From Candidatus Nanohaloarchaea archaeon (GTDB taxonomy: Archaea; Nanohalarchaeota; Nanosalinia; Nanosalinales; Nanosalinaceae), in assembly GCA_013343275.1 (NCBI GenBank), contig CP046106.1, forward strand, positions 496,001 through 560,000: a stretch of DNA of 64,000 bases, written 5' to 3'. The notes beneath the pieces were generated by a model. It was not told the origin of the DNA, made no database searches, and was given only the letters and a program-made list of their open reading frames with translations. Both the position numbers and the translations under genes were made by a program. Below, piece after piece: positions 11,331-46,549 of this stretch; the stretch's first letter is position 1, and every line of letters begins with the position of its first letter.

Positions 11331-12083
11331 GTGTTTAAAGCAGAAATCGAAGATGTTGGACTTCTACAGGACTCAATGAAAACCATTTCAGACCTAATCA
11401 GTGAAGGCCTATTCCAGTTAAAGGATGACGGCATTCACCTGGTTGCAGCAGACCCTGCAATGGTAGGTCTGGTAGATTTCCACATCGAAAAAGACGTATT
11501 CGAAAACTACGAACTTGATGAAGAATCAAAAGTAGGCCTAAATCTAGAAAATCTATACTCAATTCTTCGAAGAGCAAACAGCGATGACACAATTACTCTC
11601 GAAGTAAAGGACGACGAATCCAAGTTTTACATCAACATGGAAGGCCGCAGCACGAGAAACTTCTCACTGCCGATCCTCAATCTTTCAGAGGACGACATTC
11701 CTTCCACAGACCAGCTTGACTTCACATTCGAAGGAGAACTCGAGACAAAAGTTCTCGAAAGCGCTATAAAAGACGCGATGGTCGTCTCAGACTCCGTAAC
11801 AGTAACGGCCTCAAAGGACAGCATCGAGATCTCGGCAGAAGGCGACCAGTCCGATGTAGACTTCAAGATTACAGAGGACTCAGAAGGAGTACTGGAGCTT
11901 TCAGGAGAAGAGGCCAACTCAATGTTCAGCCTCGATTACCTGTCAAAGATGATCGGCGCCAAGAAACTATCAGATACAGTCACAGTCAAGATGGCCGACG
12001 AATTCCCAGTCAGACTGGAGTTCGAGATCCCAGATGAGGCCAACCTGAGCTTCGTACTGGCACCACGCATAGAAGAAGATTAA
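11331..12083 (+). CDS. pcn: DNA sliding clamp PCNA
   Basis: Ring-shaped clamp that holds polymerases, ligase and repair factors on DNA. The 250-residue chain starts at GTG 11331 after a strong GTGAGGAGGGG site and has the family landmarks: MVGLVDFHIEKDVFENYEL (about 44-62), the interdomain link, and the C-terminal block FPVRLEFEIP...LSFVLAPRIEED. The last residues RIEED plus stop are copied twice downstream with synonymous changes (see the repeat entry). It follows the OB-fold gene in one operon. Confidence 0.95.
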   Translation: MFKAEIEDVGLLQDSMKTISDLISEGLFQLKDDGIHLVAADPAMVGLVDFHIEKDVFENYELDEESKVGLNLENLYSILRRANSDDTITLEVKDDESKFYINMEGRSTRNFSLPILNLSEDDIPSTDQLDFTFEGELETKVLESAIKDAMVVSDSVTVTASKDSIEISAEGDQSDVDFKITEDSEGVLELSGEEANSMFSLDYLSKMIGAKKLSDTVTVKMADEFPVRLEFEIPDEANLSFVLAPRIEED

Positions 12084-12215
12084 CTTCTTTCTATGCTTAA
12101 ACCAGAAGATCTCTGATCTTCGGATCCACGCATCGAGGAAGACTAAGGCTTCTCACGTGCTCTAAGAAGCATTATTGAATGCTTCGTCACGTATTGAAGA
12201 GGATTAAACCTCTTC
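12063..12215 (+). repeat. Hairpin array repeating the 3' end of the PCNA gene
   Basis: The sequence encoding RIEED-stop occurs three times: 12,063-12,083 (the real gene end), 12,126-12,146 and 12,187-12,207. The codons differ but the peptide does not: cgc-ata-gaa-gaa-gat-taa, cgc-atc-gag-gaa-gac-taa, cgt-att-gaa-gag-gat-taa. Between and within them are perfect hairpins: GAAGATC-tct-GATCTTC (12,105-12,121), GAAGCAT/ATGCTTC (12,166-12,185), GAAGAGG/CCTCTTC (12,196-12,215), and a longer one on the gene end itself (12,067-12,096, one bulge). The remaining bases to 12,265 are AT-rich with no gene. Confidence 0.75.
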
Positions 12216-16154: not shown

Positions 16155-16211
16155 ATGACCGAAAATCAGAGATTTTCTGAGCAAGCAAAAAATCACAGAG
16201 GTGATTTTTGA
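16155..16211 (+). CDS. 18-codon upstream ORF of eS27
   Basis: MTENQRFSEQAKNHRGDF, with a Shine-Dalgarno GGTGATT (16,143-16,149) overlapping the eL42 stop and six bases before its ATG. Its TGA stop (16,209-16,211) directly abuts the eS27 ATG. It spans two perfect hairpins, so ribosomes moving through it would open them. It may be a leader peptide for translational coupling. Its peptide sequence matches nothing I know; the coding claim rests on the ribosome-binding site and position. Confidence 0.45.
   Translation: MTENQRFSEQAKNHRGDF
16159..16209 (+). promoter_or_regulatory. Twin hairpins, the second hiding the eS27 Shine-Dalgarno site
   Basis: First hairpin GAAAATC-aga-GATTTTC (16,161-16,177). 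Second hairpin AAAAATCAC-agag-GTGATTTTT (16,188-16,209), nine perfect pairs. Its 3' arm contains GGTGAT (16,200-16,205), the ribosome-binding site six bases before the eS27 ATG at 16,212. A folded mRNA would block eS27 translation unless the small ORF through it is being read or a protein or ion shifts the fold. Autogenous control by a ribosomal protein is the natural guess. Confidence 0.6.
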
Positions 16212-46226: not shown

Positions 46227-46336
46227 AACAAGGTACTGTCCTCTAAAGTTTGAAAACCTTACCGCAAGGCCAACCTCACAAAACATCGAGGTATTTAAGA
46301 AAATAACCGAATAAACCTAGCATACAGTTCCAACGT

Positions 46337-46408
46337 GCGGTGTTGGTCCAGTGGCTAAGACCCCGGCCTTCCAAGCCGGTGACCCGGGTTCAAATCCCGG
46401 ACGCCGCA
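46337..46408 (+). tRNA. tRNA-Gly (TCC)
   Basis: A 72-nt cloverleaf: acceptor GCGGTGT/ACGCCGC with one G-U pair, discriminator A, D arm with TTGGTCC, anticodon stem CCGGC/GCCGG and loop CTTCCAA (anticodon TCC, 46,370-46,372), T arm CCGGG/CCCGG with loop TTCAAAT. A TATA-like TATTTAAGAAA lies about 45 bases upstream. CCA is not encoded. Its 3' end is copied downstream. Confidence 0.95.
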
Positions 46409-46549
46409 AATTTCTCTGGAATTTGCTTGATTAAGAAAATCTCCTGATTTTCGGACGCCGCAAAACTTCTGAAAGTTTTATCATCATAAGCCATGCACTG
46501 CATGGCTTCCGGATTTAGCAGAAGATTTCTAATCTTCGGCACCGCATCC
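46398..46549 (+). repeat. Hairpin array repeating the 3' end of tRNA-Gly
   Basis: CGGACGCCGCAAA (46,398-46,410, the tRNA end) recurs exactly at 46,452-46,464; CGGCACCGCA (46,537-46,546) is a weaker third copy. Five perfect hairpins fill the gaps: GCAAATT/AATTTGC (46,406-46,426), GAAAATC/GATTTTC (46,435-46,452), AAAACTT/AAGTTTT (46,462-46,479), AAGCCATGC/GCATGGCTT (46,488-46,508), GAAGATT-tct-AATCTTC (46,521-46,537). No ORF of note. The stretch 46,550-46,642 has only a promoter for the next gene. Confidence 0.75.

Follow-up and report, generated by a model that had tools for sequence, protein, structure and literature searches.

Described systems closest to the gene-end hairpin units

In a 64,000-nucleotide stretch of Candidatus Nanohaloarchaea archaeon (the window; positions 496001–560000 of the closed, 915,886-bp genome, G000), short hairpin units lie behind the 3′ end of a tRNA-Gly gene and behind the gene encoding PCNA. 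Outward from the gene, and in the same order at 3′ and 5′ gene ends, a unit runs from the true gene end (D′) through an inverted, imperfect copy of D (I), in many cases preceded by a small hairpin (h1), to a short perfect hairpin (h), mostly GAAR...YTTC, and a direct copy of the gene end (D). We give roughly even weight to the reading that these units are very short, gene-less mobile hairpin cassettes which insert at gene ends, mostly of tRNAs, and keep the gene intact through duplication of its final 13–26 bases.

Integron attC and filamentous-phage attP are sites used as folded single strands, and the units resemble them in having inverted imperfect arms (I and D) around a variable hairpin tip; this attC-like imperfect palindrome is present in the units, with I-h-D pairing above that of shuffled sequences. 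As in integrons, tandem arrays grow at one fixed end, here with gene-proximal insertion, but the units have neither an open reading frame (ORF) nor a GTTRRRY core, D matches the end of its host gene exactly, any IntI partner would be hypothetical and a single-strand step is proposed by analogy. Archaeal bulge-helix-bulge (BHB) tRNA introns transpose between tRNAs, and introns in these genomes carry GAAAATC...GATTTTC-type hairpins; the units, in contrast, are external to the mature gene, occur at 5′ as well as 3′ ends and also at protein genes, and come with a duplicated end. Insertion of casposons is directed to tRNA 3′ ends and produces duplications, and palindromic repeats are common to casposons, repetitive extragenic palindromic (REP)/IS200-IS605 elements and the units. 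However, the Y1_Tnp (HUH) transposase was found in 0 of 28 genomes, and Cas1 only in G003 and G006 of the 28, not in G000.

Archaeal integrative elements of the SSV and pNOB8 types target tRNA genes (PMC8371274, PMC3293823), and the model for disruption of tRNA-Thr in Caldiarchaeum is a near precedent (PMC3293823). In these, as here, the 3′ or 5′ end of the tRNA is duplicated and the gene reconstituted, and D is the core of such an island in a congener (below), but the units are only 54–130 bp, have no integrase and contain I and h. Mitochondrial repetitive and double hairpin-forming elements are likewise short, gene-less, perfect hairpins, single or in tandem, with complementary substitutions, which appear mobile and for which no enzyme is known (PMC2800124). 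Both kinds are repeated, apparently mobile, short non-coding hairpins; the mitochondrial elements, however, lie in intergenic and gene regions, the Allomyces type without flanking duplications (PMC2800124), whereas the archaeal units duplicate the gene end directly and inverted, with a D duplicate in every unit. No published description of such gene-end hairpin inserts was found among the open-licence literature.

Anatomy of the tRNA-Gly array and the gene-boundary rule

The tRNA-Gly array (46398–46546 of the window) comprises the following features.

46336–46409, + strand: tRNA-Gly (TCC), host gene of the array (ARAGORN; Rfam RF00005)
46398–46410, + strand: D′, true gene end and first copy, CGGACGCCGCAAA at the tRNA-Gly-TCC 3′ end
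46415–46425, + strand: I, inverted imperfect T-arm copy, TCTGGAATTTG versus CAAATCCCGGA, also within hairpin 46406–46426 (sequence; complementarity test)
46435–46452, no strand: h, perfect hairpin GAAAATC-TCCT-GATTTTC abutting D
46452–46464, + strand: D, second copy of the tRNA-Gly end, exact CGGACGCCGCAAA, 54 bases on
46462–46479, no strand: hairpin AAAACTT-CTGA-AAGTTTT, part one of a conserved 'cap' block, with ATCATCAT next
46488–46508, no strand: hairpin AAGCCATGC-ACT-GCATGGCTT, part two of the cap block
46507–46519, + strand: I of the second unit, TTCCGGATTTAGC (sequence)
46521–46537, no strand: h of the second unit, GAAGATT-TCT-AATCTTC
46537–46546, + strand: D, third and degenerate copy of the tRNA-Gly end, CGGCACCGCA (sequence)

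The original prediction had described an exact repeat of the tRNA end 54 bases on, a weaker third copy at 46,537 and five perfect hairpins with loops of 3–7 bases. The exact repeat is as described, CGGACGCCGCAAA being the sole direct-repeat family of the region, and all five hairpins were located (46406–46426, 46435–46452, 46462–46479, 46488–46508 and 46521–46537; loops of 7, 4, 4, 3 and 3 bases). The third copy is unconvincing alone, but it lies directly behind the same I plus h pair.

Across loci the units measure about 54–130 bp and are gene-less, with hairpins only and no integrase pieces between the copies. An example from tRNA-Lys of G009 reads TTCAAATCCCGTTGGGCCCA / TATCAAAGATATGC TTTCTCC CGGGATTTGA TTGCA GAAGAACTTGCTTCTTC GAA / TTCAAATCCCGTTGGGCCCA. 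D varies in length (13–30 bases) and is tied to the gene boundary: its identity ends −2 to +3 nt from the gene end in 25 of 27 tRNA units, and exactly at the stop codon TAA in PCNA. Since a random target-site duplication would overshoot this boundary, the duplication is not an ordinary one. Together with the third-position differences at PCNA (below), the boundary rule suggests an insert that brings along, or restores, the whole gene end. The inner ends of D are GTTCAAATC at tRNAs and unrelated to that at 5′ ends and at PCNA; no shared terminal inverted repeats were seen, the insert termini differing from locus to locus. A mirror-image unit was also seen where a protein gene of G009 starts (94-aa ORF; L173:9240–9329), with D beginning exactly at the ATG.

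Two features extend beyond the original prediction, namely the inverted gene-end copy I and the units at tRNA 5′ ends. I is a genuine component of the unit: the sequence lying between D′ and h shows more complementarity to D than shuffles do (Fisher p = 3.6e-13; flank beyond D, p = 0.22), and in a circular one-unit fold with DNA energies I-D pairing averages 0.58 versus 0.34 when shuffled (Wilcoxon p = 2e-7). In tRNA 3′ units, I matches its own D more closely than it does those of other tRNAs (permutation, 0/5000); for the first tRNA-Gly unit alone (46415–46425), complementarity to D gives p = 0.038.

Direct, inverted and direct copies in succession (D′, I, D) are the signature of two template switches, and I is partly locus-specific, so that fold-back (template-switch) synthesis at gene ends, copying sequence directly and inverted as a mutational by-product with no mobile element, has to be weighed. 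We consider it very unlikely, since h has no source in the flanks and is found again, letter for letter, beside unrelated tRNAs of different genera, and since the units sit at gene boundaries rather than at random and a whole unit is duplicated at a second tRNA-Ser.

The cap block of the tRNA-Gly array (46462–46508: hairpin AACTT..AAGTT, GATCATCA, hairpin AAGCC..GGCTT) was also seen at G000:376351, G000:600448, G001:204995, L041 and L330, outward of tRNA 5′ and 3′ ends and pointing away from the gene.

The PCNA array and conservation of its outer unit

The same plan had been predicted behind PCNA, and it holds there: the gene end recurs twice, with hairpins between the copies, in an array spanning 12063–12215.

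11331–12083, + strand: PCNA gene, 250 aa (Pfam PF00705/PF02747)
12063–12083, + strand: D′, last 21 bases of PCNA, CCACGCATAGAAGAAGATTAA, ending exactly at TAA
12084–12096, + strand: I of unit A, CTTCTTTCTATGC, inverted copy of GCATAGAAGAAG (sequence; fold)
12105–12121, no strand: h of unit A, GAAGATC-TCT-GATCTTC
12126–12146, + strand: D, second PCNA end; unit A, not present in G001 or G003
12149–12160, + strand: I of the older unit
12166–12185, no strand: h of the older unit, GAAGCATTATTGAATGCTTC, shared with G001 and G003
12188–12207, + strand: D, third PCNA end, CACGTATTGAAGAGGATTAA

The unit is laid out as GCATAGAAGAAGATTAA / CTTCTTTCTATGC TTAAACCA GAAGATCTCTGATCTTC GGAT / CCACGCATCGAGGAAGACTAA. 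Among the PCNA ends (three copies in G000, plus those of G001 and G003) differences occur at third codon positions only, so that coding selection has acted on each copy at some time. Unit A is found in G000 only and the outer unit also in G001, which belongs to the same genus (1,046,959 bp), and in G003; new units are therefore added next to the gene, with older ones pushed outward.

The older unit (CTCTAAGAAGCAT...ATGCTTCG) is conserved in all three genomes while its flank is not, which hints at function and weighs against a purely mobile origin. The units might accordingly be selected RNA or DNA elements (3′-end, leader, processing or replication structures) inherited vertically with turnover, D tracking the gene by selection or conversion. 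In keeping with this, the hairpins of the tRNA-Gly array differ in sequence between G000 and G001 and are equally perfect in both, tRNA-Cys is occupied in both genomes by units with different hairpins, and the tRNA-Lys 5′ units of G000 and G003 differ, each D fitting its own tRNA at both of these orthologous genes. However, most sampled tRNAs have no unit, the occupied tRNAs vary between congeners, one outward anatomy at both 5′ and 3′ ends is hard to explain as a transcript signal, and no Rfam family matches the hairpin arrays. We thus regard this explanation as unlikely. A narrower reading of the hairpins as Box C/D RNAs or terminators was rejected, on the same lack of an Rfam match and, for terminators, on the 5′/3′ symmetry.

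Frequency against chance and distribution

Hairpins by themselves show no enrichment in the window (30, against 15–28 in shuffles). In G000 the scan covered 464 of 916 kb, in stretches picked to cover tRNA genes, and a two-tier hairpin scan that took no account of direct copies was not above shuffles, making the duplication the discriminating feature. A direct repeat flanking a perfect hairpin occurred 8 times, against a mean of 0.15 in 20 dinucleotide shuffles; two cases are coding repeats and six are genuine and at gene ends (PCNA; tRNA-Gly-TCC and Gly-GCC, 3′; tRNA-Lys-CTT, Tyr and Cys, 5′). The observation of the original prediction is confirmed and is an instance of a more general arrangement.

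Units were found at 31 of 166 sampled tRNAs in ten Nanohaloarchaeota genomes. Four of these were broadly sampled, with units at 5/41, 3/37, 6/31 and 11/34 tRNAs; in the other six some stretches had been picked for matching a window search, so that the share of units there is biased upward. Control archaea had a unit at 0 of 39 tRNAs after two matches were set aside, both being tandem whole tRNA genes. The I-h-D pattern GGATTTGAN{8,36}TTCAAATCC gave 18 matches in six Nanohaloarchaeota genomes, none in 12 other archaea and none when reversed, and an h-specific pattern gave 10 matches in the 28 genomes of the phylum, none reversed.

On sequence anatomy, units are also present in a few DPANN (Diapherotrites, Parvarchaeota, Aenigmarchaeota, Nanoarchaeota, Nanohaloarchaeota) genomes outside Nanohaloarchaeota. 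In the phylum around a Nanoarchaeota metagenome-assembled genome, 4 of 371 genomes matched the h-specific pattern, three of them with the anatomy, and in a scan of one genome per species a true gene-end copy was found at 4 of at least 118 loci, all judged DPANN. Among the matches listed for that scan, the bacterial ones were rejected as chance, true gene-end copies occurring only in loci judged DPANN. The array had no match in phage and plasmid collections. In viral contigs, a pattern of h plus T-arm gave 11 matches, none at a tRNA, and the I-h-D pattern gave 12, one of them (L374) with the anatomy behind a tRNA-like 3′ end; L374 is IMG/VR 3300009285_002298, a putative viral contig with the order D′-I-h-D.

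Presence and absence of units between relatives

Comparison between the congeners revealed filled and empty versions of the same sites, the flanks being preserved. In G001 only, a 3′ unit is present at Ser-GCT, where the flank past D corresponds to the G000 flank directly after the tRNA, and at Glu-CTC. In G000 only, units are present 3′ of Gly-GCC (a third D relic keeps the flank that follows the tRNA in G001) and 5′ of Tyr and Lys-CTT (D at the promoter-proximal position of the original tRNA start), and a degenerate array is present 5′ of Pro-TGG. The empty sites that the original prediction had suggested seeking in sister strains thus exist: G001 is empty for at least four G000 units and has two units of its own.

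Repetition of units at separate loci was also found. In G006 (948,351 bp), a pair of non-allelic tRNA-Ser genes separated by 475 kb carry one identical unit, and the identity stops at the edge of D; in G009, an array of ~128 bp is found in near-identical form at two tRNA-Ser genes. In G020, tandem near-perfect unit repeats lie behind tRNA-Leu and tRNA-Gly, the latter at a contig end, and identical h sequences occur at different tRNAs in different genera. From these sequence comparisons, mobility of the units is well supported.

A mobile hairpin element that duplicates its target was one of two readings offered in the original prediction; it is largely supported, by the empty sites in the congener and the identical unit at two tRNA-Ser genes. 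Another explanation, a non-autonomous palindromic element resembling miniature inverted-repeat transposable elements, moved by DNA transposition through an unidentified transposase and making a target-site duplication of 13–26 bp, would account for an insert flanked by direct copies and for clean empty sites. It is nevertheless the least probable of the explanations considered: common terminal inverted repeats were not seen, duplication length varies and respects gene boundaries, almost no units occur away from gene ends, and Y1_Tnp is lacking in all 28 genomes and Cas1 in G000.

Integrases and the tRNA-Gly island of G001

The other reading offered was that of tandem attachment-site (att) remnants. 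In G001, an island of ~28.4 kb (C1:205092–233468; L096–L098) lies between the same tRNA-Gly and a D copy at 205,092, and a 544-aa PF00589 tyrosine recombinase is encoded at its edge beside the D copy. D is therefore an att core of real islands, and an integrase element bounded by D, also named in the original prediction as something to look for, does exist, albeit without I-h adjoining D. Beyond the island D, the G001 array goes on with hairpins unlike those of the window. The island cargo, which is not in the window genome, comprises a tyrosine integrase, an MCM/Toprim protein, two P-type ATPases and a pyridine nucleotide-disulphide oxidoreductase.

This evidence gives substance to the possibility that tyrosine-integrase islands at gene ends lost their interior, leaving tandem att copies with the hairpins as leftover arm sites. 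Moreover, tRNA 3′ and 5′ ends are the usual archaeal targets (PMC3293823), D, like att sites, ends at the gene boundary, and the gene end is duplicated with the gene reconstituted. We nevertheless find the possibility quite unlikely. Random deletions would not yield uniformly tiny units with h against the distal D and a matched I; the attR of the G001 island is without I-h; no integrase fragments lie between the copies; and h is identical between different tRNAs and between genera. D copies more than 300 bp away are also rare, with only three in the sampled loci, none having I-h before D. The prediction thus stands as regards D as an attachment core, not as regards the units as remnants of islands.

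PF00589 was detected in 14 of 28 genomes; G000 has two matches, neither inside the window nor adjoining the arrays. Candidate tyrosine recombinases of G000 lie at C1:245450 and C1:123875. The second G000 tyrosine recombinase gene (G000:C1:123260–124510) is directly downstream of a tRNA (anticodon GAT, probably Ile) and might belong to an integrated element, whose right end was not found.

Proposed mode of movement

To return to gene-less mobile cassettes, we infer the chemistry of their movement as follows. The moving form would be a folded single strand: base-pairing of I with D would yield a short duplex version of the target, with h as its cap; such an intermediate is proposed by analogy, the I-D arm with its hairpin tip resembling integron attC and filamentous-phage attP. 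Strand exchange or annealing at D would then join the cassette to the gene end, the activity coming from a tyrosine recombinase acting in trans or from general recombination, and D′ × D recombination could allow precise loss. Removal of the unit by splicing, in the manner of a BHB intron, is judged improbable, since h abuts the would-be 3′ site and units are also carried by protein genes and leaders.

Several observations weigh against the mobile-cassette reading. Neither an excised form nor a circle or single strand was observed, and the units have no dedicated enzyme linked to them; the draft genomes G020, G023 and G024 have units with no Phage_integrase match detected. In about one-third of tRNA 3′ units, I shows only the universal T-arm match, fitting its own D no better than the D of other tRNAs. 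The tRNA-Ser pairs of G006 and G009 possibly arose by gene conversion between isoacceptor genes. Finally, h is common across loci while I and D match the locus, which is not simple for a cassette with a fixed attachment site, and this, like the conserved older PCNA unit, leaves room for function or for target-templated copying.

More tentatively, the units may be DPANN integrating elements of a new, minimal class: a gene-less hairpin moving as a folded, single-stranded molecule, whose inverted arm pairs with a gene end, which is tolerable in essential genes because the gene end is always restored, and whose hairpins recur in tRNA introns. If so, they would rank with the smallest mobile DNAs known to insert by a gene-preserving rule, acting on essential genes (tRNAs, PCNA) in genomes of ~1 Mb. 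They would provide a natural, datable insertion series for studying the way in which tRNA genes of archaea come to be interrupted, and may connect the flanking hairpins with the exceptionally numerous tRNA introns in these organisms. The proposal is testable, as congeners with empty and filled sites exist, at least one of them from a culture consortium.

Hairpins shared with tRNA introns and other loci

Introns were found in 19 of 34 sampled G009 tRNAs, many of one family, CCTCAAGTTCTC...GAGAACGAGGAC, plus a GAAAATC-type hairpin; a second family (GGTTACGCTC...CACGCAA) is found within introns as well as in the flanks of tRNAs. Very many introns are seen in G009 (L110, L166, L169–L173, L180–L182) and G003 (L150–L165), with two or three families common to different tRNAs, and these introns carry the GAAAATC..GATTTTC hairpins of the flanking units. 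One hairpin stock thus appears, from sequence likeness, to feed both introns and flanking units.

Elsewhere in the window, two perfect hairpins lie between two small genes at 16161–16209, with a possible weak gene-end copy (GGTGATT..AATG). At 1424–1753, tRNA-Met (70-nt intron) lies beside tRNA-Val, and the hairpin CAAACTTTGAAGCGAAGTTTG and GATCA abut the 5′ end of tRNA-Met.
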